Under the pieces are notes generated by a model. The model saw nothing but the letters and a program-made list of their open reading frames with translations. It did not search any database and was not told the DNA's origin. Shown here in pieces: positions 46,634-64,000 of a DNA stretch of 64,000 bases. Source of the DNA: Halobaculum saliterrae (lineage in GTDB: Archaea; Halobacteriota; Halobacteria; Halobacteriales; Haloferacaceae); NCBI RefSeq assembly GCF_009831625.1, contig NZ_WUUS01000003.1, positions 1-64,000 of the forward strand. Reading direction: 5' to 3'. The position numbers and the translations under genes were made by a program. Each line of letters begins with the position of its first letter. Within the stretch, counting starts at the first letter, position 1.

Positions 46634-46765
46634 CTACACGCCGATTTCCGCAGGTCGATTCCCCAGATCAGTTCCACGTCCGTCGCTTCGCGGGCCTCGT
46701 GTTCTGTGCGCAGATCGGGGTAGCGTGCAACTCACTGGAACTGAGGTGTCTGTACAGCAAACCAC

Positions 46766-46903: not shown

Positions 46904-46928
46904 TTCCCTGTCCGGGCTGGGTTGGGTA

Positions 46929-48635
46929 ATGCGGTCGTATGACGTCGTCGTCGTCGTCCCGTTGGCAGAGGAGTTCGATGCAATAAAACGCGTGTTCGAT
47001 GTCGAGCGTTCGTTCGTTCGAAACGGGATCACGTTCTACGAACTCTCGATCGCAGATTCCGAGCTCGACGCCCCCGAGTCGGATGTCGTTGCGATCGTTC
47101 TGTCACAGATGGGCAACGCGAACGCCGCTCAGAAGACGGAACGTGTGCTCTCGATGATCGACCCACCGGGCCCCCAGTTGGTCGCACTCGTCGGGATCGC
47201 CGGACGGCTCGACGACGACTTCGGTCTCGGTGATGTGGTCGTCGGCACGGAGGTAACGAACTACGAGATCCGGTCGAAGCTGACTGAGGCGGAGGACACG
47301 ATGGCGAACGGGTCCGCAGAGAGCGACTCCGAAGCAGATCAGGACGGGTCCGAGGCTACTGACGATGAACGGAACCGGCCACAGGGGGGCGGCGACATGA
47401 CGTTCCCCCTAGTCAACTGGCAACCAGGCGGGCGGACATATTCGACCGCTCCCGAGGTCGCGGAGGCAGTCGCGCGGTTCCGCAACGAGACGGCACACTA
47501 CGAACCGTGGCGTACCGACACGACAGAACAGGTAGCCACTTGGGTTCGAGAGGAGATAGACAAGACGGACGACATCTCCGTGACTGAGGAGGTCGAACTC
47601 GATATCAAAGACTGGGCGGGAGGAGACCTGAACGCGGATGTCGTGGCGCCAACAACGGCTGATGAGGACTCCACCGAGACTCATGACGAGGGCCCCCTTC
47701 GAGCCGATCAGTTCTCGTTACCGTTGCAAGCTGCCAACGAGCCGTTGGCGTCCGGGTCGTTCGTCATTACGTCCACCGACTTCACCGAGACACTCGACAA
47801 ACAAAACCGGAACTTCGCCGCCGTAGAGATGGAAGCGGCGGGTGTGCTGTTGGCAGTCGGCCGGGCGACCGGTGTCAGCGGCGTCGTCGTTCGGGGGATC
47901 TCCGATCTCGCGGATGGTGAGAAGGGGAGCCTCGATGACATGGGGGGCGGACTGTGGCGGGAGTGTGCGGCATACGCTGCGGGAAGCTACGTGGCGCACT
48001 TCTTGGCGAACGGATTGGTTCCTGTTGCCGCATCACCGACAGAGCGTCCGGCCGTCCACCAGACACAAGCACCAGTGTCGGAGCAAGCAGCTGCGTCTCC
48101 ACGCGACCCCAGCGACCTCGTGGCTGCGGACGTTGACCTCACTGGCGGTGGGCCAGCAACGAACTATGTCCGTCGGTACGTCCGCTCTGAAGGGCCTGTC
48201 ATCAGGTCAGATCCCGTACGAGATGGCATCGCTGTGCGAACGGAGTTCGACGTCTCCGTTCCGATGCTTCTGCGACTGGAGGCTGTGGATCTCTCTGTCA
48301 GTGCCGGTTCCACGTCGGACCCACACCAGCAGGAGATACTGGTCGACGGATCGCGACAGCCGACACGAGTCGACAGTACTCGACGTATCGAACACCCTAT
48401 CGAAGTCTCTGCGAACACGCCAACGACGATACGGATCGAATCGCATTTCACTGCTGAGGACCCCCGGTCGCCGTCGGTTACCGCCGATGACGCGACCGCC
48501 GTCGAGATCGAATGTGCGTTCGGATCCGACGGTCTCGATGAGCGGATCCGGTTGCTCGTGAACGGATACATCGACCCGACTGCTGGACTGCAGGTGACTG
48601 AGTCAACGCTGAACACGATACCCTCCGAGAGGTAG
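46929..48635 (+). CDS. Nucleoside-phosphorylase-superfamily protein with C-terminal beta domain
   Basis: 568 residues from ATG 46929. N-terminal 1-370 follows the PNP/UDP phosphorylase (MTA/SAH nucleosidase) fold: VVVVVPLAEEFDAIKRVF, VALVGIAGRLDDDFGLGDVVVG, and the nucleoside-site region FAAVEMEAAGVLLA with VVRGISDLADG, where Glu and Asp are the expected catalytic/ribose residues. A long acidic insertion (about 118-160) interrupts the domain. The C-terminal 400-568 is a beta-sandwich-like domain of unknown family. Such phosphorylase-like domains occur as sensor or effector parts in bacterial conflict systems. In this island it may sense or degrade a nucleotide. Confidence 0.7.
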   Translation: MRSYDVVVVVPLAEEFDAIKRVFDVERSFVRNGITFYELSIADSELDAPESDVVAIVLSQMGNANAAQKTERVLSMIDPPGPQLVALVGIAGRLDDDFGLGDVVVGTEVTNYEIRSKLTEAEDTMANGSAESDSEADQDGSEATDDERNRPQGGGDMTFPLVNWQPGGRTYSTAPEVAEAVARFRNETAHYEPWRTDTTEQVATWVREEIDKTDDISVTEEVELDIKDWAGGDLNADVVAPTTADEDSTETHDEGPLRADQFSLPLQAANEPLASGSFVITSTDFTETLDKQNRNFAAVEMEAAGVLLAVGRATGVSGVVVRGISDLADGEKGSLDDMGGGLWRECAAYAAGSYVAHFLANGLVPVAASPTERPAVHQTQAPVSEQAAASPRDPSDLVAADVDLTGGGPATNYVRRYVRSEGPVIRSDPVRDGIAVRTEFDVSVPMLLRLEAVDLSVSAGSTSDPHQQEILVDGSRQPTRVDSTRRIEHPIEVSANTPTTIRIESHFTAEDPRSPSVTADDATAVEIECAFGSDGLDERIRLLVNGYIDPTAGLQVTESTLNTIPSER

Positions 48636-48679: not shown

Positions 48680-49612
48680 TCAGCGCTGACCAGCGATGCC
48701 GGCTCCGTGTTCTCGCCACCGTACCGCGTCGACGACCTCGTATGCGACGAGTTCCCAGTGTTCGACCGCCGATTCGAGTTCCGCCTGCTTTGCTGCCAAC
48801 TGCTCCATGTCAAGGAGCTCTCCGTCGGTGAGGCGGTCACCTGACGCCGTAACGAACTCGCGGACGGTCTCGACTCCGGCGTCTTCGGCTAGGCGTGCGA
48901 GCCAAGCCGGTTCGATCCGGTCGCCGGGGCGGAGCGGCATTCTGATCTCTCCGGTCGTCGTAGCGATCTCGATCCGTCCTGTCGTGCCGACCGATTGGCC
49001 AACGAGCGCCTCCTCCAACTCCGGACAGTCACCCTTCCCAAGCAGGACTGTGTAGCTGTCCCTGAACGGGTGCCGGTCGCCGAGTGGGGTACCACCGTGA
49101 CTGAGTCGAAGGTACACGAGGTCACCCACGTCGAGTGGCTCGTCTACTGCGGCCGGATCGGGCCGGGGAACTGAATCGCGGTCATCAGTCGAGGGGATCC
49201 GAAGATCCGAGCGGTCCCCATCAACTGTGGAGGCTCGTGGGCTGTCAGCCGTTCCATGCGACGGACTGTCGTCGTTCGTCGAATGGTCAGCCGTATCCGA
49301 GACCGTCTCATCCGGAACCCCCTGTGTCGATCCTTCTGTGGATGAGGGGGTCACTGCGTCCGGGCCTTCCGCATCGACGTCAGTCTCCACCCCACCTCCG
49401 GGATCGTGTGGTGAGTCCGGGACGGGTTTCATTGCCGTCGCTCGCGGTCCCTCGTCGGTTGCCTCGTAGTCGAATCGAACCCGCTGCCCGACGACTGGGT
49501 CCTCGTCACCGACTTCAGTCATGTGGAAGAAGACGTCTTCTGCCGTCGCTGGGGACTCGATGAATCCATACCCGCTCGTCTCGTGGAAGTAGTCGACTGT
49601 CCCCTCCTGCAT
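48680..49612 (-). CDS. Cold-shock domain fused to the island's FKBP-like/helical module
   Basis: 310 residues. N-terminal cold-shock domain (1-62): GTVDYFHETSGYGFIES, then DVFFHMTEV, containing the RNP1-like YGFIE and RNP2-like VFFH. It binds RNA or single-stranded DNA. A disordered acidic linker (65-155) leads to the module shared with the propeller proteins (about 158-305): VGDLVYLRLSH, HPFRDSYTVLLGKGDCPELEEALVGQSVG, a helical part WLARLAEDAGVETVREFV, and terminal DAVRW. The FKBP-like resemblance is most visible in this copy. Cold-shock proteins are normally 65-70 residues, so the fusion is unusual. Confidence 0.8.
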   Translation of the reverse strand: MQEGTVDYFHETSGYGFIESPATAEDVFFHMTEVGDEDPVVGQRVRFDYEATDEGPRATAMKPVPDSPHDPGGGVETDVDAEGPDAVTPSSTEGSTQGVPDETVSDTADHSTNDDSPSHGTADSPRASTVDGDRSDLRIPSTDDRDSVPRPDPAAVDEPLDVGDLVYLRLSHGGTPLGDRHPFRDSYTVLLGKGDCPELEEALVGQSVGTTGRIEIATTTGEIRMPLRPGDRIEPAWLARLAEDAGVETVREFVTASGDRLTDGELLDMEQLAAKQAELESAVEHWELVAYEVVDAVRWREHGAGIAGQR

Positions 49613-50010: not shown

Positions 50011-50820
50011 ATGACCCGCAAGAGCGGCATTGTGACTGATTCGTTTGAGGGAGACGAGGAGGTCCCGGCCGAACTCGACGCGGTCATCGAACGGATTGAG
50101 GGCGATGAAACCCTGTCCCCGCAGGATCTGACAACTATTGAGGATTCAATCGGCGGGTCGATCACCGAACACGTCGCTGCGACGGAGGCAGCGATCTCGA
50201 TCGCAAGGAGGAGGCCGGGGTTCATGCAGGAACGCTACCCCGACATGGTCGAGTCGATACTTCGATCGAGGAAGGCTCGGACCGTGGCATACACCTACCT
50301 GCGGAGTATCATCAAGCTCCGAGACATAGAGGTGACCGTATCCGACATCCACAGCGGAACTGAGACTGCGATCGACCAACTGATGGAGCTGCTCGATGAC
50401 ATCGCAGAGGAGACCGATGGGACAGACGAACACGTCCCCGGGAGAGGTGCGACGTCGACAGAACTAGCCATGCGGCTTCGGGAGTTTGCGGACAGTGTCT
50501 CCGACCGAGAGCTGCTGGTCGTCGAAGCCGTCGCGGATGTGGTCGAGGCGGTCCCACGATGGTACGCGTCCGAGACGGGCCTCGATCAGATCGACGCCTT
50601 AGTCGACCTCCGGGCACAACATGAATTCGGCGAGATCGATCACGGCGTGACTGAGAACGGACGCGTCGACCAGGTCGACGACGAAAGCGGCTGGACCGAG
50701 AGCGAACTACTGTTTCGCGACCTCTACGACGGTCTGGCAGCAGGACTCCTCGTTCTGCAGTTTGAGCGTGACTCGGCTCCGTTACTCAGGAGTGCTGCGG
50801 TCATCAACGAGCGGATCTAG
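50011..50820 (+). CDS. Hypothetical helical protein upstream of kinase
   Basis: 269 residues, acidic, all-helical by composition, no membrane segment or known motif. Central region (about 50-130) contains SITEHVAATEAAISIARRRP and YTYLRSIIKLRDIEV. It precedes a protein kinase gene by 45 bp on the same strand, though that kinase has its own TATA-like element, so they may or may not be co-transcribed. Could be a kinase substrate or regulator; no family recognised. Confidence 0.6.
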   Translation: MTRKSGIVTDSFEGDEEVPAELDAVIERIEGDETLSPQDLTTIEDSIGGSITEHVAATEAAISIARRRPGFMQERYPDMVESILRSRKARTVAYTYLRSIIKLRDIEVTVSDIHSGTETAIDQLMELLDDIAEETDGTDEHVPGRGATSTELAMRLREFADSVSDRELLVVEAVADVVEAVPRWYASETGLDQIDALVDLRAQHEFGEIDHGVTENGRVDQVDDESGWTESELLFRDLYDGLAAGLLVLQFERDSAPLLRSAAVINERI

Positions 50821-50865: not shown

Positions 50866-52260
50866 ATGCCGCTCGACCCCGCTGTCGACAAACGGGTCCC
50901 GCCGAGTCCAGACGCTGGAACGGATCTGTCGGTCTCCTTCACCGAATTTTCCATCACGGACGAGATCGGTAGTGGCGGGTCGGCAACGGTGTATCGAGCC
51001 GATGTGCCCGACGGACCGGTCGACCACGTCGCGGTGAAACAGCCTGACTGGGAGTCGACGATCACACGGGACGCTATCGATTCCTTTCTGGCGGAGGCAG
51101 AAGACTGGGACCGGATCGATGACCACCCTCACATCGCATCGGTCTTCGGCAGCGGACCGTCTCCCCGTCCCTGGCTCGCGATGGAGTATCTCGACGGAGG
51201 GGAGCTCGCGGATCGTCTTCCGGTCGAGGACCCACTCGAGGCGCTGTGGATAGCGAGCGCGGTCGCAGATGCGGTCCAACACGCCCATAACCGAGGCGTA
51301 GCACACCGCGACCTCACTCCTTCGAACATCCTGCTTGCATCAAGCGACGAGGAGCAGTGGGACCAGCCGAAACTCGTCGACTGGGGTCTCGCGACGGTCC
51401 TCGGAGAGTCGGAGGAACCTGAGGGATACACGATCGGCTATGCGGCGCCCGAGCAAACTGCGGGTGCTGCCTCGGGGTCGGTCGGACCAGTGGCTGACGT
51501 CTATCAACTCGGGGCGGTTACGTACGCGCTGCTCGTCGGTACTCCCCCTACCCAGACAACTGCGCGGGGGTCGGGTGACGGGACACACCCGGTGACGCCC
51601 CCGAGCGAGCGTCGCGATGACGTGCCGCACGAGATCGATCCGATCGTACTCAGAGCGCTCGAACCCGAACCTGCGGACCGATATCGGGCGGCCGCACAGT
51701 TCGGCGAGGCGTGTGAGCGGTGTTTCGAATCCATCAGCGAAGGGCGATCTTCGGCTGATCGCAACGACGGGACTGAACGGACGGACGCAAGCGCACATCC
51801 GGACCAAGCGCAATCGCCGACGACAGACCCGTCTCCGTCTGGCCACCGATCAGCGGAGACTACCGCTCACGATTCCGCCACGGCCGAGGACGTGAAGGAA
51901 GCGAAATCTCGTGTGAACAATGCTGCGGCGAAGTTGGGGCGGGCGCCAGTCTTCGATACCAGTGACGACGGAGACGACGGAACCGGCGAGGTAGCTGTCG
52001 AAGTCGGCGATCGCGATCAGGAGCGGACGCGAGACCGAAGCCACGACTCAACTCGAGACCGGAGTGCAGACTCCATTGCGGCCGGACTTCACGGCTTGCA
52101 TACCGATTCGATCGCAGCCGCGATTCGAGATCTCCGTGAGACGACGGGTGCCAAGCGGACCGCCTCAATAGCCGAAGCGCTCCGCCGAGAGCCGACACGA
52201 CCCACTGAGGACACCATCGGTGATTCGCTTCGGGCAATGCACAACAAGCCCAGCAGATAG
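50866..52260 (+). CDS. Ser/Thr protein kinase (Hanks type) with long disordered tail
   Basis: 464 residues. Kinase domain about 25-290: glycine loop GSGGSATVYRA, Lys58 in VAVKQPD, hinge AMEYLDGG, catalytic loop HRDLTPSN (Asp149; Thr in place of the usual Lys), DWG (172-174), YAAPEQ. A Ser/Asp/Arg-rich disordered stretch follows (295-400) and then three short repeat-like helices (SIAAGLHGLHT, SIAAAIRDLRE, SIAEALRREPT), each starting with a Ser-Ile pair, which may bind partners. TATA-like CATTTCATATCC lies about 30 nt upstream. Cytoplasmic. Confidence 0.9.
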   Translation: MPLDPAVDKRVPPSPDAGTDLSVSFTEFSITDEIGSGGSATVYRADVPDGPVDHVAVKQPDWESTITRDAIDSFLAEAEDWDRIDDHPHIASVFGSGPSPRPWLAMEYLDGGELADRLPVEDPLEALWIASAVADAVQHAHNRGVAHRDLTPSNILLASSDEEQWDQPKLVDWGLATVLGESEEPEGYTIGYAAPEQTAGAASGSVGPVADVYQLGAVTYALLVGTPPTQTTARGSGDGTHPVTPPSERRDDVPHEIDPIVLRALEPEPADRYRAAAQFGEACERCFESISEGRSSADRNDGTERTDASAHPDQAQSPTTDPSPSGHRSAETTAHDSATAEDVKEAKSRVNNAAAKLGRAPVFDTSDDGDDGTGEVAVEVGDRDQERTRDRSHDSTRDRSADSIAAGLHGLHTDSIAAAIRDLRETTGAKRTASIAEALRREPTRPTEDTIGDSLRAMHNKPSR

Positions 52261-52327: not shown

Positions 52328-54730
52328 TCATTCAACGACGCTCTCCGCGTTCTCTTGGAGTCTCTCGATCTGTTCTATCGAGTAGCCGTATCCCAGTAGT
52401 CGTGCCAGGGTGTCCGGTGGCACGGCCACGAACTCACCGACGTTCTCGATGCCGAGGTCGGTCAACTTCTCGGCACGGGGTGATCCGATCCCGCCGACGT
52501 CTGTGAGCGGGATCTCACTGTCGTGATCGCTCCGTACCGACAGACAGGTCGCACGATCGATCCACTCCTGCACTTGCTCCTCGCTATGGTTGCGACCAAG
52601 TTCGGCCACGAGCGGGTCGAGCGGTGTGGCCGCGAGTTGCTCGACGGTCTCGATACCGAGTGCCGCGAGGTCCCCGGCGTAGTTTCGGCCGATTCCGTGG
52701 ACTGCCGTCACCGAGTCCCCGTCGGAGTTGTCGGGTGTGGCTGCGCCGATCTGAGCACGACGACGGACGCTGTTCGCACGGTGGACAGAACAATCGAGCA
52801 CCTCGGCGATAGTCTCGGTATCCCTCTCGGCGAGGGCTTCGATCGTGTCGATCCCGTCATCCACGAGTGCCTGCCGCTCGCCTCCCTCGAGAGTCAGCCG
52901 TGGCGCGGTAAACATGGGGGGTGGATCGTCGGGAACGGAACCGTCGTCGGACTCGACCCAGTCATTCGCGCGGTCGATCCACGACTGAAGCTGCGCCTCT
53001 GAGACGGACAGCGACGCAGCGAGGTCGTCGGGGTCGGCCTCGGCGAGCTGTTCGACAGTCACAACACTCGCATCTTGGAGTCGCTCGCTGTATTTGTCGC
53101 CGATTCCATCGAGTGCTGTAACGTGTTCGCCGGAGTTGGCGAGGTCTCGAGCGATCGAGACGAGATTGACCGCTGTCCCACACGGGATCGTGGTTTCGTC
53201 TGCGACCTCGGCGGGGTCGGCCGTAGCGAGTTCACTAACGGTCTCGATATCGACCGAGCGAAGGTGGGTTGCGACCGAGTCCCCGACTCCGTGCACGAGC
53301 GTTGCCGGCCCAGTGTCGGTGAAGCGCGCTTCCAGCCGCGCACGCACATCGCCCGCCGCCGGATGGGCCCGAGCACGGGACACAGCGTCGGCTGCGGTTC
53401 GGACCCCGAAGTCAGCGATGTCCATGATCGTGGCTGGATCCGCCATGGCTACCTCCTCGATCGACTCGATTCCTGCGTCCACGAGCGCGGTCGAGCGGGT
53501 GGATCCGATACCGGTGAGATCGGTGAGTGAGTCAGACCCGCCACCCTCGGATGCTGTCTCCTCCCTGTCGTCAGAAGTCGACGCATCTCGTGGTGGCGAC
53601 TGAGTTCGGGCTGGCTCCTCAGCCGGGGGTCGGTCCGACGACGCCGGGTTCGCGTCCGATGGCTGAACGCCATCGACAGCATCGGTCGATCGGTGAGCGG
53701 CGTCGAGGTGCCCCGCGGACGGATCGGCGTCGTGACCGTCGTCGTCCGGTTCGGACGGTTCGTCCTTGGATACGTTTGGCTGACGTGGAGTGGTTGCTGC
53801 GTCACGACGACGAGCGACGACCGGCGGGAAGTAGCCACCGTCCCAGAGCGTCGAGATCGCGTCGGCGAAGTTGTACACCGTTTGGTAGCGATCCGACTGA
53901 TCTGTCTCCAGTGCCGGGAGGACGACGTCATCGAGGACTGGAGGAAGATCTGGCTTCACCTCGCTGGGTGGCGGCGGCAACGACGGCTCACACACCCGCC
54001 GCATCAGCGCAACGCCCGTTTCATCGTACGGGAGTTGGCCTGTCAGGAGTTCGTATGCGATGACTCCCAACTGATAGATGTCCGTCTGTCGCCCCGGGTC
54101 GCCGAACTCGTCGCTGTCGAACTGTTCGGGAGCGGCGTACGCCCGAGTCAGCCCATCGACCGTCGAGTGACGGATCAGTTCACGAGCCAGCCCCCAGTCG
54201 CCCACCTTCGGAACGTCCCAGACCTCGCCGTCCGTCGACTGGAACACGACGTTCCTCGGCTTCAAATCGAGATGTGCGATCCGACTGTCGTGAGCGTGTT
54301 TGACCGCAGCCGTGATCCGCGCGAGTATCCACAGCGCCTCGTCGGTCGGGATCGGCCCCCCGTCGTCGATGCGCTCTCGGAGTGACCCGCCATCGAGGAA
54401 CTCCAAGGCGATCGTCGGGATCGACCGGTAGTAGCCCCAGTCGACGATCTTCACGATGTTCGGGTGATCGTCGAGCCGGTCCCACGTCTCGGCCTCGTTC
54501 AGAAACGACTCCATCGCGTCGGCGTCCATCGTCTCGTCGACGCGTGGCTGTTTGATCGCGAGCGTGTGAGTGCGGTCACTGTGAACCGGCTCGGCTCGAT
54601 GAATGACTGCCGCACCGCCGCCGTCGACACGGGCTTCGATGTCGAGCGTGTCGAACTCGACCGACACGCGTCCCGGCGTGTCGAGCCGGTCCAAGTCGGG
54701 GATCCGGTCCCGGCGGAGGTCAATCCACAT
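52328..54730 (-). CDS. Ser/Thr protein kinase with six C-terminal helix-hairpin-helix-like repeats
   Basis: 800 residues from ATG 54730, chosen because it gives the same N-terminal length as the kinase at 50866; a GTG at 54778 overlapping the upstream stop is the alternative. Kinase domain about 25-310: Lys60 in LAIKQPR, hinge LEFLDGG, HLDLKPRN (Asp155, Lys157, Asn160), DWG (178-180), YAAPEQF. A disordered linker (320-410) precedes six roughly 55-65-residue units, each with an L.GIG....L...GI.T...LA..DP pattern (for example LTGIGSTRSTALVDAGIESI and VGGIGSPRAEKLTDLGIENV). HhH repeats usually bind DNA or proteins. Follows the propeller gene 54775-56451 closely and is probably co-transcribed with it. 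Confidence 0.9.
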   Translation of the reverse strand: MWIDLRRDRIPDLDRLDTPGRVSVEFDTLDIEARVDGGGAAVIHRAEPVHSDRTHTLAIKQPRVDETMDADAMESFLNEAETWDRLDDHPNIVKIVDWGYYRSIPTIALEFLDGGSLRERIDDGGPIPTDEALWILARITAAVKHAHDSRIAHLDLKPRNVVFQSTDGEVWDVPKVGDWGLARELIRHSTVDGLTRAYAAPEQFDSDEFGDPGRQTDIYQLGVIAYELLTGQLPYDETGVALMRRVCEPSLPPPPSEVKPDLPPVLDDVVLPALETDQSDRYQTVYNFADAISTLWDGGYFPPVVARRRDAATTPRQPNVSKDEPSEPDDDGHDADPSAGHLDAAHRSTDAVDGVQPSDANPASSDRPPAEEPARTQSPPRDASTSDDREETASEGGGSDSLTDLTGIGSTRSTALVDAGIESIEEVAMADPATIMDIADFGVRTAADAVSRARAHPAAGDVRARLEARFTDTGPATLVHGVGDSVATHLRSVDIETVSELATADPAEVADETTIPCGTAVNLVSIARDLANSGEHVTALDGIGDKYSERLQDASVVTVEQLAEADPDDLAASLSVSEAQLQSWIDRANDWVESDDGSVPDDPPPMFTAPRLTLEGGERQALVDDGIDTIEALAERDTETIAEVLDCSVHRANSVRRRAQIGAATPDNSDGDSVTAVHGIGRNYAGDLAALGIETVEQLAATPLDPLVAELGRNHSEEQVQEWIDRATCLSVRSDHDSEIPLTDVGGIGSPRAEKLTDLGIENVGEFVAVPPDTLARLLGYGYSIEQIERLQENAESVVE

Positions 54731-54774
54731 TACGCCGACACGGAGGCACGACAGTTCTTGACTCTGACGGAACG

Positions 54775-56451
54775 TCACTCGATCGCATGGAGCACCCCGT
54801 CGCTGGTCCGGAGATAGATCCGGCCGTTCACGTACAGTGGCTGGGTGGTCACGGTGGCGTCAAACGGGATCGTCCACTCACAGTCCCCGCTCCGTGGGTC
54901 GACCGCATACAGCGTCTCGCCGATAGCCGCGAACACTCGTCGCTGGTAGAATGGCTCCCGTGCGATGGTTGGACGTGGCGGGACCGATTCGGGTGCCGTC
55001 GAGTCGAGCGTGTATTCGAACTCGATTTCTCCGGTGTCGGCGTCCAGGCCGTACACACCGTTCGGTGCGGCGACGTAGACACGGTCATCAGTTGCAACCG
55101 GATCAGAGATCGGTGTGTGAGTGACGTCGTTCGCCCAGAGCGAATCGCCGAACTGCGTGTCGACAGCTTCCAGCAGTTGTTCAGTCGTCGTCCCGAACAC
55201 GTGTGTCCCGATCGCGGGTGTTCGAAACGCACCGGACCGTTTGGCGCGCCATTCCTCGGATCGCGTGTCGAGTGAAATGCCGACGAGTTCACCTGACCTG
55301 TCCGGAACGACAGCCAGTTGCGTGTCTGCGTCATACGCCGGGGGTTGTGGATCGGCCTCGACGCCCTTCGGATGGACCTCCCACGGGTCGACAGAGTCCT
55401 CGAGCGGAACGACCCGGAGCGCGGTGTCCGTCGTGCTGATCAAGAGTTTCTCATCGGCAATGCTCACATGTGCGTCGTCTACCCAGTCACCGAAGCTCCC
55501 GGTTCGGTCACCGGTTTCCGCATCGAAAGTCGTCAACACCGGTGGGACGAAGAGGGACCCGTCACTCCCGACCGGCGGTCGTGGTGTCATCGGTTCATCG
55601 GCGCCGTCCTCGAGGAGTGGATACTGTTGCTCCCACAGTTTGTCCCCGGTCGATGCGTCATAGGATTCGAACGCATGACCCGTCCACGTGTACACCCGGC
55701 CGTCCATCACAGCCGGTTCGATGTCGGCAACCGTGCGGTCGATGCGACTCACGGTCCAGCGTTCCGTTCCAGCGAGGGACGCTGGGGATTCGTTTCCTCG
55801 ACAGCCGGTTCGAGCGAAGTCGGCCCCTGCCGTCCACCACTCGGTGATGGACTTCTCTCCGTTTGCTGTGTCGCTTCGGTTTCCCGAGCCTAGCCGGGCT
55901 TCCAATTCGGGCGTGTTACTATCGAACTCGCCGGCTGGGCTGTCACCGTCCCATCGGTACGACTCATCGATGGTTACCTCAACCAGATCAGCGTCTCCGA
56001 CGGAGTCCACGAGGGTGTTCTGCAGCTGTTCGAGCCGCGACGTGCTCACGAGCGGGGAGTCAACGGTCGATGGGTCCGCCCGCAGGAACGATACGACGGT
56101 GTCGAATCCGAGTTCCTCCAGGATGCGTTCCGTCGACCTGTCGAACACGTCTCGTATCGACGGGGCAGGTTGAATCATCAGCGCATCCATCGACGGCGAC
56201 TCGTCTTCGGTCTCCTCCGCCGGTTCGGTTCCCACTCGAAACGTCACCGTCGTGTCCAACGCCGAACCGATGACCTCCCGTTCGATCACAGGGTATCGAC
56301 CGCTCCCGAGCAACACGCCGGCCCGAGTACTGAACGGCGACCCCCGGTTCGGTGGATCGACCCACGTCACGGAGAGATACACAAAATCACCAGGTCCGAG
56401 CACTGGACGTCCGGACCCGCGTACTGGTTCACTGGAACGCTCGTCTGACAT
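54775..56451 (-). CDS. PQQ/BamB-like beta-propeller protein with FKBP-like N-terminal module
   Basis: 558 residues from ATG 56451. Module at about 15-165: LGPGDFVYLSVTWVDPPNRG, VLLGSGRYPVIEREVIGSAL, then ERILEELGFDTVVSFLRADP and end DESYRW. The propeller follows (about 190-558), with blades such as DASTGDKLWEQQYPLL and DPRSGDCEWTIPFDATV. Paralogue of the protein at 33128-34741; both end in a DGxLHAIE sequence. Its stop is immediately before the downstream HhH-kinase gene, so propeller and kinase form a two-gene operon and likely a complex. Divergent from the winged-helix kinase at 56590. Confidence 0.75.
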   Translation of the reverse strand: MSDERSSEPVRGSGRPVLGPGDFVYLSVTWVDPPNRGSPFSTRAGVLLGSGRYPVIEREVIGSALDTTVTFRVGTEPAEETEDESPSMDALMIQPAPSIRDVFDRSTERILEELGFDTVVSFLRADPSTVDSPLVSTSRLEQLQNTLVDSVGDADLVEVTIDESYRWDGDSPAGEFDSNTPELEARLGSGNRSDTANGEKSITEWWTAGADFARTGCRGNESPASLAGTERWTVSRIDRTVADIEPAVMDGRVYTWTGHAFESYDASTGDKLWEQQYPLLEDGADEPMTPRPPVGSDGSLFVPPVLTTFDAETGDRTGSFGDWVDDAHVSIADEKLLISTTDTALRVVPLEDSVDPWEVHPKGVEADPQPPAYDADTQLAVVPDRSGELVGISLDTRSEEWRAKRSGAFRTPAIGTHVFGTTTEQLLEAVDTQFGDSLWANDVTHTPISDPVATDDRVYVAAPNGVYGLDADTGEIEFEYTLDSTAPESVPPRPTIAREPFYQRRVFAAIGETLYAVDPRSGDCEWTIPFDATVTTQPLYVNGRIYLRTSDGVLHAIE

Positions 56452-56589
56452 TCGGTTTGGATGAAGACTCGGACGTGTCCACAAAGCCGTTTCGTCGACG
56501 AGTCCCGGTTCCTTTCACCCACTCCGAGGGCCGGTCTCAGATCCCACGGGAAAACAGTTTTGCCAGTTGAATCGAGCTACTCACACCGA

Positions 56590-59484
56590 ATGACCGACCG
56601 AGCGTTAGTCGAAACAGCCTACGAGGCGGCCGTTCCGGAGCGGCGCAAACCTGACAACGAGGGAGTAGTTGACGTGCTCTGTGCAGTCGCCACTGAGGGA
56701 CCGATAGGGGTGGTGCAGCTGTCGAGGCTGGCGGGTCTCACTCAGCGGGAAGTCCGCGACGTGTTACGGTTCTTGGAGGAACACGCGTTAGTGGAGTCGA
56801 CCACCGATGGTCACGTTCTTACTTACTCGTTCGGCAACGTTCTCATTGAGTGTCAACAATCCAATGACGGGAAGGCGGCGGAAGATATCGCGGTAACGAA
56901 TGAAAAGTCCGAGTCCTCCACGCTGGAGGAACGCTTGACCGACATCGAAGACAGGGTTGTGACCAGTTCCGACGGGGCAGTGCGTCGTACATACGACGCA
57001 GACGTGGTCGACGTGGTCGACCTCGCGGAGATCGCGATCGAGGGGGACGCTGGATCCGGGACCACCGGTAATGAGGCGGGAGACCTGCTCCTCGAGGTCG
57101 TAACGACGTTCAACCGCGAGCAGTGTGAGGAGCTGATCGACCGAGCGACGAACGAGTTCACTCCCGCACTGCTGTACGCGGCCGGAATGGTGGTTGAGGA
57201 GAGCGAGCTAGCGTTCTCACGGGGAATGCTCATCCCCGCTGTTCCGGACTTAGTCGATATCCTCGTCGACGAACGGGCATCGCGACCAGTTCTACAGGCC
57301 GTTTCCTATCTGTTGGCGGGCCTCGCTGAGGAAAGCCCCACTGTCCTTCTCGATTGGGTAGACGAGGTGACAGCCACGCTCAAGCGGGAGTCGGGACGCG
57401 GCTCCACGGTGCCGTTCTACATGGGACTCGTCGATACGCTCGAGAGTCTCTCGATCGCGTCACCTGACAGTTTCGAGGCGACGCATGTCGGGGACCTCGT
57501 CGAGTCCGCACACGCACTCCCGCGGAGTTGGGCACGCCGGGTCGTTCGCGTCCTCGTGAATATCGCCGACGAAGACTCGCGTGCCGTCTGGCTCCACAGC
57601 GATGACATCGAACCCATCGTGGACGATGCCGTCGACGCGGGCGACGAACGGTTGCTCGCTGAGTTATCTGAGCTCCTAGTCAGACTCGACGGGATCACGG
57701 CCGGACGACTGCTGGACCGCGTTACGAGCGCGGGTGGATCCCCTGATCTCGATGGGGACACCCAGCGATCGGACTCACCCACGGCTGATGAGGAAGTGAC
57801 CGAATCTCGAGGGTCCGATTCCGCACAGACAGCGACCACCGGCGATACTGCCGCCACCCAGTCAGCGGGAACCGCCGATAAGTCCGAGTCGGCGGACGAT
57901 CCTCAAGCTGTCACCCGGCATGCAACCGAAGAGAGCCGGGGACCCGTCGGTCAGCCGACGGAGGAGCTGCCGATTCCAACTGTCGAATCGGTCGCAAGCC
58001 CGCGTCGGCGGGAGATCGACCGAGGCGAGATCCGAATCGAAGGGACGATCGACACAGGTGGACAGGCGGTCGTTCGTCGGGCAGTCTTGCCGGGCGACGA
58101 TTCGACGACGATCGCACTCAGGGAGCCGCTGGGTGGCGACACGCTCACTCGTTCCACAGTTGAGGCGTTTAACGACAGGGCAGACGTGTGGGCGACAGTC
58201 GACGATCGGGAACGGACGCTCGGTCGCTGGACGGACAACGACCACGTCGTGGGCGTCCTCGACATCGGCGAACGAATGCCGTGGGTTGCAACCGAGTTCA
58301 TGGACGGTGGGGATCTACGCGGGTTGCTGGAAGACAACCCCGACGGGCTGTCCATCCAGCAGGCCCTGTGGATCGGTGAGTGCATCTGCAAGGGCATCTA
58401 CGTCGCCCACGAGACCGGGGTCGCTCATCTCGACGTGAAGCCCGAGAACGTGTTGCTCTCGACGACAGACGGGTGGCCTTGGCCGAAGGTCGCGGACTGG
58501 GGACTCGCTCGGCGACTCGCTTCCGAAACCGGGACCGCGGACGGGGCCTCCGTCGCGTACGCGGCGCCGGAACAGTTGGATCGCGAGGAGTTCGGGGAGC
58601 CGGACACGCTGAGTGACGTGTATAGCGCCGGTGCAACAGTGTACGAACTCCTGACTGGCTCCCCGCCGATCACGGGGACCCCAACGGAGATCATGCGTGA
58701 GACGGTGGCTTCGGAGTCTCTCGAACCGCCGAGTCGCCGACGATCGGAGGTCCCGCCCGTCGTCGACGCGGTCGTGACGCGTGCACTCCAGCGCGAGAAG
58801 ACCGAACGGTACAGCGGGATCAAGGCGTTCGGACAGGCGCTTGAAGCAGCGCGAACCGGGGGGCGTCTCCCTCCCGCGGTGACACTACCGAAGACTCACA
58901 CGAGTCCATCAGGCGGGCACTCCGGCGAGCGAAGCAGACAGTCCTCGGTGAACGAATCAAACCGTGGGAACAGTGTCGATCGAAATACCAGCGTAACGCA
59001 CGGGGGGACAGATGACGAGCTGTCCACCAGCGGAGCGGATGAGAGGGATACCAAAGAGCCTCTCGCCGACGGGACTGATGGTACCTCCGTAGCGTCGAAC
59101 GTCATTGAAACGCCCGACGACGCAGGCAAGGGCGTGCCCGTCGACCGGATGAAGAGCATCGGTCCGGGATACGCCGACCGACTCAAAGCAGTCGGAGTTG
59201 AGACGGTCGCCGACCTCGCGGCTACCGACGCGCAGACACTCGCGGCGAAGAGCAGTATCGCCGAGAGACGTGCCGAGTTGTGGATCGACCGTGCGGCGGC
59301 GTTCGAACCCCAGCGGCGAGCACGAGAGGAGAATACACGGGACGTTGGGGGTCAAGGATCAGACGACACAGACGCCGAGTACTACTGTCCAGAGTGCGGG
59401 GACTCGTTCCAGGAGGGATCGGCCCGTGCTGGAGATATCTGTCCGGAGTGCAAACGAGGTTACTTGGAAGCGGTCAAGCCGTGA
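56590..59484 (+). CDS. Winged-helix / Ser-Thr kinase / HhH / zinc-ribbon protein with beta3 Lys replaced by Arg
   Basis: 964 residues from ATG 56590. N-terminal winged-helix domain (about 25-80, GPIGVVQLSRLAGLTQREVR), an alpha-helical HEAT-like region (about 140-370), a disordered linker, and a kinase domain (about 475-755). The latter has TIALREPLGG, where the invariant Lys is Arg511 (AGG codon at 58120-58122), hinge TEFMDGG, HLDVKPEN (Asp615), DWG and YAAPEQL. Then an HhH-like unit (MKSIGPGYADRLKAVGVETV) and a C-terminal zinc ribbon with YYCPECGDSF and ICPECKRGY. The Lys-to-Arg change often abolishes catalysis, so this may be a pseudokinase scaffold that reads DNA or a ligand. Confidence 0.88.
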   Translation: MTDRALVETAYEAAVPERRKPDNEGVVDVLCAVATEGPIGVVQLSRLAGLTQREVRDVLRFLEEHALVESTTDGHVLTYSFGNVLIECQQSNDGKAAEDIAVTNEKSESSTLEERLTDIEDRVVTSSDGAVRRTYDADVVDVVDLAEIAIEGDAGSGTTGNEAGDLLLEVVTTFNREQCEELIDRATNEFTPALLYAAGMVVEESELAFSRGMLIPAVPDLVDILVDERASRPVLQAVSYLLAGLAEESPTVLLDWVDEVTATLKRESGRGSTVPFYMGLVDTLESLSIASPDSFEATHVGDLVESAHALPRSWARRVVRVLVNIADEDSRAVWLHSDDIEPIVDDAVDAGDERLLAELSELLVRLDGITAGRLLDRVTSAGGSPDLDGDTQRSDSPTADEEVTESRGSDSAQTATTGDTAATQSAGTADKSESADDPQAVTRHATEESRGPVGQPTEELPIPTVESVASPRRREIDRGEIRIEGTIDTGGQAVVRRAVLPGDDSTTIALREPLGGDTLTRSTVEAFNDRADVWATVDDRERTLGRWTDNDHVVGVLDIGERMPWVATEFMDGGDLRGLLEDNPDGLSIQQALWIGECICKGIYVAHETGVAHLDVKPENVLLSTTDGWPWPKVADWGLARRLASETGTADGASVAYAAPEQLDREEFGEPDTLSDVYSAGATVYELLTGSPPITGTPTEIMRETVASESLEPPSRRRSEVPPVVDAVVTRALQREKTERYSGIKAFGQALEAARTGGRLPPAVTLPKTHTSPSGGHSGERSRQSSVNESNRGNSVDRNTSVTHGGTDDELSTSGADERDTKEPLADGTDGTSVASNVIETPDDAGKGVPVDRMKSIGPGYADRLKAVGVETVADLAATDAQTLAAKSSIAERRAELWIDRAAAFEPQRRAREENTRDVGGQGSDDTDAEYYCPECGDSFQEGSARAGDICPECKRGYLEAVKP

Positions 59485-59593
59485 CGTCTACTGGTTCGAC
59501 GGCTGCGCAAGCTGAGGTTGGTGATAGTCCACCGATCACTAATTCCGGTGCGGCCGCTGGACTGATGAGAATCGCCCGCTGAGTCTCACGAGT

Positions 59594-60484
59594 ATGGAGT
59601 ACGATCCTGGTCCGGTACCGGACAGCGTCGACTGGTACGGACGACAGGGACAGGAACCCACGATCGTCTCGATCAGCGACATCCACGGATACCTTGACGC
59701 CGCCCGCAACGCCCTCACAGCCGTCGGTGAGACCGACGTGTACTCACCGGTCGTGACAACTGACGAGGAGGGACGGCTACACTGGGCCGACAACGACTAT
59801 TTGCTCGTGATCAACGGTGACCTGATCGATAGAGGGCCCGACAACCGTGCGTGCCTCGAACTCCTAACGCGACTCGCGGAGGAAGCTCCGCCGGGTCGGA
59901 TCAGGTATCACCTCGGGAACCACGAGATGGCGGTCCTGTTCCCCAACCGGTTCCGCTGGCCCGGCGTGTTCAGTATCGAACTTGACCGCGACCTCAGACG
60001 GGCGTTCGTTACTCACGTTGCAGCGGGTCGGATCACGGCCGCCTTCGATGGCTATCGGTACACCTACGCACACGCCGGCAGCACTGATTCGTTCGACGTG
60101 ACGACCGTCAACGAGTCGGTGCGTACCGCCGGGGGGAAGTTACGCGCCATGTTCGAAGACGGGCAATACGACGACGATCACCTCGATATCCTTCCGGAAC
60201 ACGAGACCGTGTTCGGTATCGGGGAGGGCGGCGGCCGTGGGCCGTCGGCAGGCCTGTTATGGATGGACTTCAAGCACATGACCGCTGACGCGCCGCCGCA
60301 AATCGTCGGGCATTCGCGCCATCAAGAACCGACCCGAACGGGACAGGTCGTCTGTGAGAACGTCATTCGGACGAACCTCGGATCACCCGGCGGTGAGGCG
60401 GTGTTGCTGGAACGACCCGATGAGTTGGCCGCCGTCGTGAACACCCCAGCGGGCGCAAGGGTGCGGACTATGGATGCTGACTGA
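59594..60484 (+). CDS. PPP-type (calcineurin-like) protein phosphatase
   Basis: 296 residues. All three PPP signature blocks are present: SDIHGY (Asp29, His31), NGDLIDRGPDN (Asp76, Arg80) and LGNHEM (Asn109, His110), plus the later metal histidines in TYAHAGS and IVGHSRHQE. This is the pattern of PrpA/PP1-like Ser/Thr or Tyr phosphatases rather than generic phosphodiesterases. It lies 109 bp downstream of the winged-helix kinase on the same strand and probably reverses phosphorylation by the neighbouring kinases, alongside PP2C at 40202. Confidence 0.85.
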   Translation: MEYDPGPVPDSVDWYGRQGQEPTIVSISDIHGYLDAARNALTAVGETDVYSPVVTTDEEGRLHWADNDYLLVINGDLIDRGPDNRACLELLTRLAEEAPPGRIRYHLGNHEMAVLFPNRFRWPGVFSIELDRDLRRAFVTHVAAGRITAAFDGYRYTYAHAGSTDSFDVTTVNESVRTAGGKLRAMFEDGQYDDDHLDILPEHETVFGIGEGGGRGPSAGLLWMDFKHMTADAPPQIVGHSRHQEPTRTGQVVCENVIRTNLGSPGGEAVLLERPDELAAVVNTPAGARVRTMDAD

Positions 60485-60531
60485 GGATGGCTGGTAGCTG
60501 GCTTGGCTCTATAATGGAGTTCAGTATGCTG

Positions 60532-60537
60532 TTTTTT
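60532..60537 (+). terminator. T-run between convergent phosphatase and kinase genes
   Basis: TTTTTT about 48 nt after the phosphatase stop, inside the short convergent gap. Poly-T tracts act as archaeal intrinsic terminators. Confidence 0.5.
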
Positions 60538-62045
60538 CAGCGGACTCTCTGAGCTTCTTCACGCCATCTCGCGATCGCGTTGGGGGACCGGTCGAGTTTT
60601 CGGCCGATCTCAATGTCGTCGACATTTGCGAGATCGTGTAAGTCCGTGATATTGACGGCTGCGAGTGCCTTTGCTTCAGCCTCAGTGATCCGATCGAGTC
60701 GGTGGTATGGAACTGTCTCGGAGGCCGGTGTGGTCCGGTCAGTTGTATTATTGTCTTTCTTTGGTGTCTTCGAGGTAGTTTGTTCATCTCCGGTCAGCGA
60801 TGTATCTGTCCCACGGACGGCTTTTGCTTCACCGATCCATCTCGCGACCGCATTCGGAGACCGATCCAATTCGTGAGCGAGCGAGGTTTCGTCTGCGCCT
60901 GCGAGATCCGCGACTGTTGAGATACCGTTCATCTCGAGATTCTGGATTTCTTTCCCGTCGACCCGCGACAGCTCGGCTAATTCGGACGTACTTTCCGGGG
61001 TATCGGTCCGACTGCCTGTGGCTTCACTACCTCCTTCGGCCACTTCAGTGGAACCTGTTGGGTTCGTTTCCGTCGGTGGTCGTTCAACCGGTCTCGAGCG
61101 GTCCTCAGGGCGGATACCATCCACTGAACATCCCGTAGCGAGTACGTCATTCAGCGCCTTGCGGAACTCGGTCACGTTAGCGAACCGGTCGGTCTTTTCG
61201 GCAGAGAGTGCACGGCTTATCAAGCCATCTACCTCGCTGGGTACGTCAGAACGATGTGTCTGTACCGATGGTGGAGAGCCCCCATCGACGACCGATCGCA
61301 TGACGTTAAGACGCGACCCAGTGTACGGCGGGTCACCAGTAACCATCGCGTAGAGGACCGCTCCGAGTTGGTAGATGTCAGTTACAGTATCGGGTTCGCC
61401 GTATTCGCCTGGGTCGAACTGTTCCGGTGCAGCGTACTGTGGCGAGAGCGCTTCCATCGTTCCAGTTTCCTGAGCAAGTAACCGGGCGAGACCCCAGTCG
61501 GCAATCTTCGGAACGTCCCACATCCCATGCCCAGTCTCTCTGAGAAGGATATTCCCTGGGGTGAGGTCGAGATGAGCGATACCGTTCCCGTGAGCGATTT
61601 CCAGTCCACGGGCGACACACGCAGCTGTCCAGATCGCTCGCTCGACATCGATCCCCGCCGGGTTCGACTCCAACAGCCCTTCCACGCTCCCGCCGTCCAT
61701 ATATTCCATGGCGATCCAGGGGAGCTGGTCGCCCGTGCTGACGACGCCGACGATGTGCTCATAATCCGACCACCGATTCCGGTGTCGCTCCCGTCGGTCG
61801 ACAAGTTCCCAATTCTCCACTTCCGAAAGAAACACCTTCTGAGCCTCTGCAGAGAGTGTTCCAGATCTCAGAGGTTCTTTCAACGCGATGTGATTTGGAC
61901 CAGACTCCTCGGTGAGAGTCACACGGTAAACAGCAGCTTGTCCTCCACGACCGATCGGTTGCTCCTTCTCGATCGTCCGATAGTCGACTGACTGTCGTGG
62001 CGGCGACGCAAACTCCGTCACATCTGGCACACGTTCGTCTCTCAT
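60537..62045 (-). CDS. Ser/Thr protein kinase with two C-terminal HhH-like units
   Basis: 502 residues. Kinase domain about 20-290: glycine loop IGRGGQAAVYRV, Lys56 in IALKEPLR, hinge AMEYMDGG, HLDLTPGN (Asp160; Thr instead of Lys), DWG (183-185), YAAPEQF. A Ser/Thr/Glu-rich linker is followed by two related units: LSRVDGKEIQNLEMNGISTV (about 370-415) and LDRITEAEAKALAAVNITDL (about 450-500). Each ends with a conserved LDRSPNA.ARW sequence that also resembles a DNA-binding helix. Closest relative in the window is the kinase part at 56590. Soluble. Confidence 0.9.
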   Translation of the reverse strand: MRDERVPDVTEFASPPRQSVDYRTIEKEQPIGRGGQAAVYRVTLTEESGPNHIALKEPLRSGTLSAEAQKVFLSEVENWELVDRRERHRNRWSDYEHIVGVVSTGDQLPWIAMEYMDGGSVEGLLESNPAGIDVERAIWTAACVARGLEIAHGNGIAHLDLTPGNILLRETGHGMWDVPKIADWGLARLLAQETGTMEALSPQYAAPEQFDPGEYGEPDTVTDIYQLGAVLYAMVTGDPPYTGSRLNVMRSVVDGGSPPSVQTHRSDVPSEVDGLISRALSAEKTDRFANVTEFRKALNDVLATGCSVDGIRPEDRSRPVERPPTETNPTGSTEVAEGGSEATGSRTDTPESTSELAELSRVDGKEIQNLEMNGISTVADLAGADETSLAHELDRSPNAVARWIGEAKAVRGTDTSLTGDEQTTSKTPKKDNNTTDRTTPASETVPYHRLDRITEAEAKALAAVNITDLHDLANVDDIEIGRKLDRSPNAIARWREEAQRVR

Positions 62046-62185: not shown

Positions 62186-64000
62186 TCAAACTGAGAGTCC
62201 TGTCAGCCGGTCTCGAAGGTAGATGACGTCCTCGAACCTGTCTGCCGGGTCTGTCGCCATGGCGGTGGTAACGATCTCATCAAGCGCTGAGGGGACAGCC
62301 CGTTCATGGCTGGGGACGGGCGGATCGTCTCGAACCACTGACTGCGGGACGGTAGCTGTCGGACCTGTGTACGGCTGCGCTCCCGTTGTGAGCGTGTACA
62401 GCAACGCGCCCAATTGATACACGTCCGTCCGTTGGTCGAGTTCTCCTATCGAGTCGTCGAGCTGTTCCGGCGCTGCGTACGGCGGGGAGAGTCCCGATCT
62501 CCCGTCCCGGGGATCCAGTGTTCGTTTTGCCAGCCCCCAATCGGATAGTTTCGGAACGTCTAAGCCGTCCGTTGCGGTCCGGAACAAGACGTTCTCGGGC
62601 TTCAGATCCAGATGGATGACGCCACGTCTATGCGCGTGGAGGATCGCATCAGTGAGTGACGTAGCGATGGTCACGGCCTGTTCCAGAGAGAGTCCGTCCG
62701 CCCGCTCGCTGAGGCTCCCCCCGTCCATGTACTCCATCGCGATATGAGGGATCGGTGAGGAGTCGTATCCATATACGTCGACCACATGCTCGTGATCATC
62801 TAGTTTATTCCACGTTTCGGCTTCGGACATGAAGCGCTCGATGGCGTCGACGTGGATCGTGCCGTCGGATTTGGGTGTCTTGACCGCAACCCGTTGATTG
62901 TCGGAGGTACTGGCAACCGAGACTTCCCCGAAGCTCCCCTCGCCAAGTCGCCTGTCGATCTCGAGGTCGAAGTACTCGAGTTCACCCACTGCTGTCGCAG
63001 ACGTGTCGCCATAGGACACGGGCGGTTCCGTATCATCGGTGGCGTCCGTACCGGACTGCTGGGTGTCGATCTGGCCCCGATCACGGTCTCGTTTCCCGGG
63101 GGTACTTGCTGTGTCTGCCGTAGCGTTCGACACGTCCGCGGTGGAATCCTCCGATCGTGTCGGTTGACCATCGGGCTCAGCGGCGTCACTCCCCGAGAGT
63201 GCTTCCTCGAATCGGTCAGTGAGAAGCGGGCCATCCGATGTCTGACGCACCCACCCGCGTTCGTTGAGGGCGCGGAGCAACTCACGAGTCCGTTCGTGTG
63301 AACAACCGATGCTGTTCGACAGCCGAACGAGCCCGATCGGACCGTGCTTCGCGATCGTCGTGACCGTATCCTCGTACAGATCGAGATCCTCACCCGCACC
63401 CTCCAGTTCGGAACGCAGGAGTCGACCGACTCTGTCCGACGAGATGTCCAGTTCACTCGAGTCGCCGGACTCAGATGGTCCTTCACTCCGGATATCGGCC
63501 AGTGCCTCCTCGAATCGCTCTGTCACGACGGCTCCGTCGGAGTCCGGCTGCACCCAAGCGAGTTCCTCTGCCGTACGGAGTAGTTCGCGAACTCGTTCGT
63601 GCTCGACGTCGAGTTCGTTGCTGAGTTCGACTACTCCGACAGCAGTGGCTCGGCCGGCGAGATACGCCAGCATCTCGACGAACTCAGGCTGCTCTTCCGG
63701 CGAGAGACGCGCTTTCTCCCCGACTACTCGCTCGACGTCGCTGTGGTACCCCGACCGGAGGAGGATCGACCACGTCGTCGGGGTCGACTCGACCGTCGAC
63801 TCCTCCTCGCCGAACGACCACTCGACCAGACCCAACGTCTCCATTACGCCGGCGATCCCTTCAACGCGGTCGCTCGAAATGCCCGTCTCCGCGGAGATTC
63901 CGTCCAGTTCGATCGACCGATTCGCTGCGACACACCGTAGCACCGCACCATAGCCATCGAGGTCCCACTCGTCGAATTCGCGCTCCTCATGGGGGTCGTA
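62186..64000 (-). CDS. Winged-helix repeats fused to Ser/Thr protein kinase (5' end beyond window)
   Basis: At least 604 residues; the frame is open to position 64000, so the start lies outside. Three winged-helix-like units come first (LDGISAETGISSDRVEGIAG; VGVVELSNELDVEHERVREL; IGLVRLSNSIGCSHERTREL), the last two ending in a repeated TxRFEEAL sequence. A disordered linker follows, then a C-terminal kinase domain: LGEGSFGEVSVAS, VAVKTPKSDG (beta3 Lys intact), AMEYMDGG, HLDLKPEN, SDWGLAKR, YAAPEQL. It ends right after the kinase fold without HhH. Winged helices suggest DNA binding or protein interaction that recruits the kinase. Upstream neighbour is unknown. Confidence 0.9.
   Translation of the reverse strand, partial: YDPHEEREFDEWDLDGYGAVLRCVAANRSIELDGISAETGISSDRVEGIAGVMETLGLVEWSFGEEESTVESTPTTWSILLRSGYHSDVERVVGEKARLSPEEQPEFVEMLAYLAGRATAVGVVELSNELDVEHERVRELLRTAEELAWVQPDSDGAVVTERFEEALADIRSEGPSESGDSSELDISSDRVGRLLRSELEGAGEDLDLYEDTVTTIAKHGPIGLVRLSNSIGCSHERTRELLRALNERGWVRQTSDGPLLTDRFEEALSGSDAAEPDGQPTRSEDSTADVSNATADTASTPGKRDRDRGQIDTQQSGTDATDDTEPPVSYGDTSATAVGELEYFDLEIDRRLGEGSFGEVSVASTSDNQRVAVKTPKSDGTIHVDAIERFMSEAETWNKLDDHEHVVDVYGYDSSPIPHIAMEYMDGGSLSERADGLSLEQAVTIATSLTDAILHAHRRGVIHLDLKPENVLFRTATDGLDVPKLSDWGLAKRTLDPRDGRSGLSPPYAAPEQLDDSIGELDQRTDVYQLGALLYTLTTGAQPYTGPTATVPQSVVRDDPPVPSHERAVPSALDEIVTTAMATDPADRFEDVIYLRDRLTGLSV

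Follow-up and report, generated by a model that had tools for sequence, protein, structure and literature searches.

The window analysed here, a 64,000-nucleotide stretch of contig 3 of the Halobaculum saliterrae genome (G000, 3.78 Mb), includes an island with all six Hanks-type kinase genes of the genome that are detectable with Pfam (37731, 50866, 52328, 56590, 60537 and 62186). Three of the six kinases, designated k1, k2 and k3, end in helix-hairpin-helix (HhH) units located after the kinase domain, with six units in k1, one in k2 and two in k3. The tails probably serve in docking to proteins, not in sensing DNA. The three genes and their domains are as follows.

52328-54778, minus strand: kinase k1, 816 aa, with an N-terminal kinase, an acidic linker and six C-terminal HhH units (Pkinase, HHH_5; motifs LAIKQP, HLDLKPRN, DWG and APE)
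53834-54658, minus strand: k1 kinase domain, residues 41-315 (family hidden Markov model, HMM)
53354-53533, minus strand: k1 HhH unit 1, GIG, with FGVR at the second hairpin (HHH_5, AlphaFold2)
53129-53311, minus strand: k1 HhH unit 2, GVG (AlphaFold2; RadA N-domain, Z 11.3, root mean square deviation (rmsd) 1.7, 60 residues)
52937-53128, minus strand: k1 HhH unit 3, GIG and WIDRA (AlphaFold2; NusA AR2, Z 10.3, rmsd 1.8, 64 residues)
52739-52906, minus strand: k1 HhH unit 4, shortened hairpin without GxG (AlphaFold2)
52535-52723, minus strand: k1 HhH unit 5, GIG and WIDRA (AlphaFold2; Pol theta and Rad51 N-domain matches)
52331-52516, minus strand: k1 HhH unit 6, GIG (AlphaFold2)
56590-59484, plus strand: kinase k2, 964 aa from the start at 56590 (alternative start 56461), with a winged helix-turn-helix (wHTH), a possible HEAT-like region (by eye), the kinase, one HhH unit and a zinc ribbon (Pfam)
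58018-58863, plus strand: k2 kinase domain (family HMM)
59131-59313, plus strand: k2 HhH unit, SIG (HHH_5, E 1.4e-6)
60537-62045, minus strand: kinase k3, 502 aa, with the kinase and two degenerate HhH units (Pfam, leave-one-out profile)
61131-61985, minus strand: k3 kinase domain (family HMM)
60819-60989, minus strand: k3 HhH unit 1, no GhG hairpin (leave-one-out profile)
60540-60713, minus strand: k3 HhH unit 2, no GhG hairpin (leave-one-out profile)

The first-pass annotation, made from the sequence alone, had reported three kinases with six, one and two HhH-like units, and these numbers were borne out. Pfam HHH_5 matched six stretches in k1 (E 7.4e-35) and the single unit in k2, and the k3 units, at E 0.038, are too degenerate for Pfam. 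When a profile was built from the units of two of the kinases and used to search the third, that from k1 and k2 picked up both k3 units (E 4.2e-12), and the k2 unit and the six k1 units were recovered in the same way at 3e-14 and 6e-24, respectively. Given both sets of matches, the unit counts are correct, far beyond chance. The Pkinase domain was found in all three proteins, with E values from 4e-26 to 9e-33 (the latter for k1). Kinases k1 and k3 keep the Lys motif, HxDxxxxN and APE, with DWG instead of DFG, as in 66 of 77 family kinases. In k2, HLDVKPEN is seen in the translation, and ALREP, which has no Lys, replaces the lysine expected at the VAIK site, hence kinase activity of k2 is uncertain. 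The zinc ribbon of k2 resembles small proteins adjoining kinases in the related islands L136 and L137.

A 401-residue segment containing the k1 array was modelled with AlphaFold2 from an alignment that is deep only at unit 3. The model (mean pLDDT 84.4, pTM 0.42) predicts six well-defined helical domains whose mutual arrangement is undefined. Units 2, 3 and 5 superpose on the RadA/Rad51 N-domain, NusA AR2 and Pol theta with Z scores of about 10-11; for small helical domains a Z of ~10 is only moderately specific, and the RadA/NusA-type relatives agree with the sequence profile. The prediction thus supports the assignment of the k1 units as RadA-N/NusA-AR2-type HhH domains and upholds the fold proposed for the repeats in the first-pass annotation. 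It covers the units of k1, while the k2 and k3 units are assigned from sequence profiles.

For the whole k1 array, the top Foldseek match was topoisomerase V in complex with DNA, albeit a weak one (E 8.5e-3). DNA binding is the classical role of the HhH fold, single units are matched by RadA/Rad51 N-domains and Pol theta, and GhG persists in five of the six k1 units. The kinases could accordingly be imagined as DNA sensors, in which the HhH tail would bind DNA (e.g. broken or foreign DNA) through GxG backbone contacts, and so dimerise and activate the kinase. Precedents for stimulation by DNA exist among Hanks-type kinases, namely YabT (PMC6333020) and the PQQ-propeller kinase RqkA, which is activated by PQQ and DNA ends (PMC11007091), and an Mrr-type nuclease is encoded in the island. 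However, no more than five of the nine units have an intact GhG hairpin (k1 units 1, 2, 3, 5 and 6). Unit 4 of k1 has a shortened loop (LEGGERQAL), the k2 unit reads SIG, and RVDG and RITE are found in k3, so the L.GIG pattern ascribed to all units earlier holds for a part of them. Furthermore, the glycine pattern of the second hairpin survives in two of the nine units and is lost from the other seven, and the two hairpins expected of DNA-binding (HhH)2 proteins are not found in these units. The nearest sequence relatives, described below, also speak against DNA sensing, which we regard as the main alternative to docking and as rather unlikely, though with a real chance of being correct. Net charge was considered as a test of DNA binding and discarded; the k1 units range from -4 to -11, and in this acidic proteome these values do not set them apart from the RadA unit (-10) and the TopA unit (-7) of the same genome.

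Relatives of the units were sought in a class sample of 292 haloarchaeal genomes. The best matches to the k1 array were scattered single or paired units, and no counterpart of the six-unit array was present in the sample. Among 72,556 plasmids six records matched, none of which reached 80% coverage; no k1 relatives were found in viral contigs, and a search of GTDB genome contigs for homologues of the array returned only three distant bacterial kinases. Thirty proteins with single or paired units from the class sample were looked at in detail. Of these closest relatives with an intact hairpin, eight are polyhydroxyalkanoate (PHA) synthases bearing HhH at the C-terminus, and a further 15 were recognised as small acidic proteins by their MGLLxKLKSLLG-like N-terminal helix, with two or three more of the latter identified by eye. 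The signature L.GIGP.YA.RL..AGI.TV..LA.ADP..LA....S..R...WI..A is common to many of the units. The k1 array is also matched by the NCBIfam phasin PhaH (E 9e-9). The HhH in the tail of Haloferax mediterranei PhaC has been termed a domain of unknown function, with PhaH of Caulobacter pointed to (PMC12028471). As the nearest units sit on PHA synthases, small acidic proteins and PhaH, the GIG hairpin in this subfamily need not mean DNA binding.

Class III PHA synthases of haloarchaea that end in an HhH were seen at loci L080, L081, L085, L097-L100 and L105. Their HhH and the small acidic MGLLxKLKSLLG proteins have a common signature, possibly that of a shared granule-docking tag.

A search for the kinase-HhH architecture across the family, which the first-pass annotation had called for, was conducted with a local family HMM on 79 kinases from 40 loci in the source and related genomes. 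HhH was found on only three of the 79, the three being k1, k2 and k3 of the window. According to Pfam, the relatives instead bear PQQ propellers, HEAT, copper-binding, tubulin/FtsZ, EF-Tu/eEF1A or substrate-binding domains, the PQQ-type propellers accounting for seven C-terminal and 14 N-terminal regions. In related islands, kinases are found in direct fusion with cold-shock domains or PQQ propellers (L136:27880-30771, L136:38791-41178 and L137:11593-13572). The last of these, on the plus strand of a Halarchaeum plasmid, has four C-terminal cold-shock domains. Two other fusions in the family were observed, one with a C-terminal FtsZ/tubulin-type GTPase domain in which the GGGTGTG signature is kept (L042:8103-10085, minus strand, genome G233), and one with EF1A/EF-Tu domains 2 and 3 (L147:13422-15224, plus strand, genome G352; GTP-eEF1A_C, E 7e-28). 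A test of the related islands for other adaptors common to kinases and non-kinases yielded PQQ propellers, HEAT-like regions and the zinc ribbon, but nothing else.

In the kinase tree, k2 and k3 group with nine HhH-less kinases in a clade with 100/99 support, and k1 lies outside it. Three changes are needed to place the HhH label on this tree, of which at least two are forced, and a topology with the HhH kinases in one clade received borderline rejection (p-AU 0.0485). In addition, the k2 unit shares 55% identity with the HhH of a small acidic protein from the same genome (G000:C6:98507). Hence, HhH was most likely acquired at least twice in the island, and such repeated recruitment suggests selection for the same tag. 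The likeness of the k2 unit to a resident protein could also indicate that recombination with resident haloarchaeal HhH genes, such as a C6:98507-like source for the k2 unit, distributed the tails as neutral or loosely used add-ons with no function common to the three kinases. The absence of a counterpart to the six-unit array from the class sample and the degeneracy of the k3 units would fit this. Against it stand at least two acquisitions in one island, the six k1 units predicted to be well folded, and the subfamily W motif retained even in the degenerate k3 units, and we consider such an origin improbable.

HhH units in the island are not confined to kinases. The earlier list of nine kinase units stands but was incomplete, since degenerate HhH units are also present in an FKBP-like module of the proteins at 33128, 36044, 48680 and 54775 in the window and at 71703-73382 of the contig, just past the window end. 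This module of ~160 residues thus occurs in five island proteins with PQQ propellers or a cold-shock domain (PQQ at 33128, 36044 and 54775, cold-shock domain at 48680) and in one protein on contig 1. Those in the window are the following.

33128-33616, plus strand: FKBP-like module with inserted HhH, N-terminus of a PQQ-type propeller protein (33128-34741; profile searches)
36044-36562, plus strand: FKBP-like module with inserted HhH, N-terminus of a PQQ-type propeller protein (36044-37708; AlphaFold2, Foldseek)
48707-49138, minus strand: FKBP-like module with inserted HhH, C-terminus of a cold-shock-domain protein (48680-49612; profile searches)
55948-56451, minus strand: FKBP-like module with inserted HhH, N-terminus of a PQQ-type propeller protein (54775-56484; profile searches)

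Matches to the first half of the module are haloarchaeal proteins resembling SlyD-type FKBPs, and those to the second half are HhH proteins. For the module at 36044, AlphaFold2 predicted an FKBP fold (pLDDT 85.4, pTM 0.75) with the HhH, residues 98-157, at the flap before the last strand. In this model the HhH part superposes on the N-domains of RAD51 paralogues (Z 9.0, rmsd 1.9, 60 residues), and the similarity of the module to SlyD is modest (Foldseek E 0.02, best-rank probability 0.87, Z 7.0, rmsd 3.7). A weak hhalign match between the module alignment and the k1 array (probability 15%, E 0.0018) was superseded by the profile searches and the fold model. As modelled, the HhH of the carriers is a degenerate HhH inserted in an FKBP-like flap. 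The protein on contig 1 (G000:C1:61816-63459, i.e. L138:9816-11459, minus strand) is a sixth FKBP-HhH-PQQ protein, located off the island with no kinase nearby, and adjoins OLD-nuclease-like and GHKL-ATPase-like genes (by eye).

The first-pass annotation had suggested that the fusions either sense DNA or assemble on a common scaffold. No positive evidence for the former was obtained here, and the latter is the better half of the proposal, given the PHA synthase and small acidic relatives, the NusA AR2 fold, the four units out of nine whose GhG is changed or missing, and the HhH on non-kinase neighbours. We therefore favour, with slightly better than even confidence, a role for the HhH domains as protein-protein adaptors on modular island kinases, with the k1 tail gathering HhH proteins into an assembly. 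This reading draws on the swapping of modules in the kinase slots, with HhH on three of 79 kinases and other modules on the relatives; on the repeated recruitment of HhH in the island; on the closest units being PHA synthase tails and small acidic proteins; on the nearest solved folds, which include the protein-binding NusA AR2; and on the related HhH built into the five island carriers. Moreover, one helical adaptor present in several copies per locus on different domains is the pattern of the effector-associated domains (EADs) (PMC8195603).

Under the adaptor reading, the Hanks-type kinases would have variable N- and C-terminal slots, which relatives fill with propellers, HEAT and other modules, and in this lineage HhH would have entered the C-terminal slot of three kinases on at least two occasions. 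The k1 tail, being hexavalent, would bring k2 and k3, and perhaps also the PQQ or cold-shock proteins with FKBP-HhH modules, into one assembly, in which kinases may be activated by proximity and may reach substrates near the sensors of the carriers. Such a scaffold would partly replace direct kinase-sensor fusion. Adaptor function, contact between units, activation by proximity and the carriers as partners are all inferred. That PQQ and cold-shock domains are kinase-fused in related islands and here lie on FKBP-HhH carriers suggests HhH docking instead of fusion; for the window, docking between kinases and carriers is conceivable, though poorly supported. A fuller version, in which HhH-HhH contacts wire the HhH-tailed, up to hexavalent kinases to sensors on the carriers as a plug-in code, is doubtful and has a small chance of being right. 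If true, it would give archaea an equivalent of the adaptor networks built from death folds or EADs.

Several observations weigh against the adaptor reading. The GxG hairpin kept in k1 units 1-3, 5 and 6 also serves DNA binding, and the tandem HhH array of topoisomerase V binds DNA. PQQ is present on none of the six window kinases versus about 21 of 73 elsewhere, a difference that is not statistically telling. The full FKBP-HhH module was absent from the 291 other genomes of the class sample and from ten congeners, and the only other genome found with such carriers is G352, which belongs to another genus. The G352 island encodes ten kinases and three FKBP-HhH propeller carriers. It had been predicted beforehand that this genome would also have HhH kinases, and the prediction failed, as none of the ten bears HhH and two carry PQQ propellers themselves. 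Hence, the HhH of the carriers needs no HhH partner on a kinase and in G352 must act in some other way or with a different partner, and the specific docking model is weak.

The remaining kinases and two further genes of the island are listed below.

50866-52260, plus strand: kinase k5, no HhH (Pfam)
62186-64000, minus strand: kinase k4, wHTH and kinase, no HhH, 5' end at the window edge (Pfam)
37731-39005, minus strand: kinase k6, no HhH (Pfam)
40202-40918, minus strand: PP2C phosphatase (PP2C_2, E 4e-13; 41-43% identity to island homologues in L136 and L137)
44609-46633, plus strand: coiled-coil protein, island marker (homologues in L136, L137 and G352)

Besides the Mrr-type nuclease, the island encodes two calcineurin-type phosphoesterases, and past the window end lie genes for two proteins classified by eye, a HEAT-like one of 1450 aa and a vWA-like one. 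A CdvC/Vps4-like AAA ATPase is encoded at 41585-43555 on the minus strand (nearly full-length NCBIfam CdvC match, weak MIT match), adjoined by an acidic helical protein that is ESCRT-III/Snf7-like by eye and 64% identical to a G352 island protein. The plus-strand gene at 50011-50820 includes a thermosome/TCP-1 chaperonin fragment only (profile positions 370-482) that is conserved in related plasmid islands. The product of 46491-48635 (plus strand, start probably near 46914) belongs to the nucleoside-phosphorylase superfamily and resembles the PN-superfamily effector of PADLOC. Much of the gene set recurs on plasmids pHmuk01 of Halomicrobium mukohataei and pCBA1220-02 of Halarchaeum sp. CBA1220. 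As strong homologues of the coiled-coil marker were found in only about 17 of the 292 haloarchaeal genomes, the island is accessory. A TnpB-like transposon gene (L039:13037-14341, plus strand) and small toxin-antitoxin-like genes are located on contig 3 past the window, just downstream of the island, and these neighbours are consistent with its mobility.

Single proteins resemble components of PADLOC models, the kinases PD-T4-6/MADS mad6, the AAA protein IetA (IetAS), and the third the PN-superfamily effector just named, with scores short of the NCBIfam equivalog cut-offs; beyond these single-protein resemblances, no complete known defence system was identified in the island. The slots might hold copies of housekeeping modules (FtsZ, EF1A, chaperonin, FKBP, cold-shock and HhH) as integrated decoys, viral attack on which would trigger the kinase. 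The FtsZ and EF1A kinase tails, the thermosome-fragment and FKBP-like proteins of the same islands, and the likeness of the kinase and AAA proteins to defence models would agree with this. However, the nearest relative of the HhH units is neither RadA nor TopA but a domain for which no viral attacker is known, and many slots contain ordinary sensor or scaffold domains. We regard decoys as very improbable.

The kinase-HhH fusion appears undescribed, as no description was found in the searched literature and a 2005 survey (PMC1262709) makes no mention of HhH; both domains and the principle of domain swapping were already known. Archaeal Hanks-type kinases are poorly understood. Here they present as interchangeable cores of multi-kinase clusters that are rare and in which accessory domains are exchanged, the kinase-HhH, kinase-FtsZ and kinase-EF1A fusions being examples. 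If docking is indeed what the HhH tails do, they would form an archaeal adaptor-based kinase network with a logic comparable to death-domain signalling. The conserved GIG hairpin alone is no proof of DNA binding.

The units share with NusA AR2 and the RadA/Rad51 N-domain (HHH_5, PF14520) the fold (Z 10-11, rmsd 1.7-1.8, 60-64 residues) and, in most k1 units, the GhG of the first hairpin, but differ in that up to six stand in tandem on a kinase, the second glycine is mostly lost, and the nearest sequences are haloarchaeal PhaC-tail HhH. Like the HhH tails of haloarchaeal PHA synthases and PhaH, they are C-terminal add-ons with the signature L.GIGP.YA.RL..AGI.TV..LA.ADP...WI..A, whereas those tails are single units on a granule enzyme rather than a kinase. 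Topoisomerase V is likewise an archaeal protein with a long tandem HhH series, yet its array is DNA-bound and part of a topoisomerase, and the whole-array match is weak, as stated above. Kinases of the same family as those in the window are fused to PQQ-type propellers in related islands, as in RqkA (DR2518), but the window kinases have no propeller and the propellers reside on separate FKBP-HhH carriers. The carrier modules are predicted to resemble SlyD-type FKBPs in their fold and in the insertion of a domain ahead of the final strand, this insert being HhH and not the insert-in-flap domain of SlyD. Finally, EAD conflict systems, described in papers with no mention of hairpins or haloarchaea (PMC7159879, PMC8195603), also have several copies of a small helical adaptor per locus and kinase, PP2C, nucleosidase, restriction-endonuclease, HEAT and vWA genes nearby. 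Unlike in those systems, profiles detect no HhH in the island AAA ATPase, where distant forms could escape them. As in EAD loci, however, the same small adaptor is found on several proteins of the island, namely the three kinases and, in degenerate form, the five FKBP proteins with PQQ or cold-shock domains.

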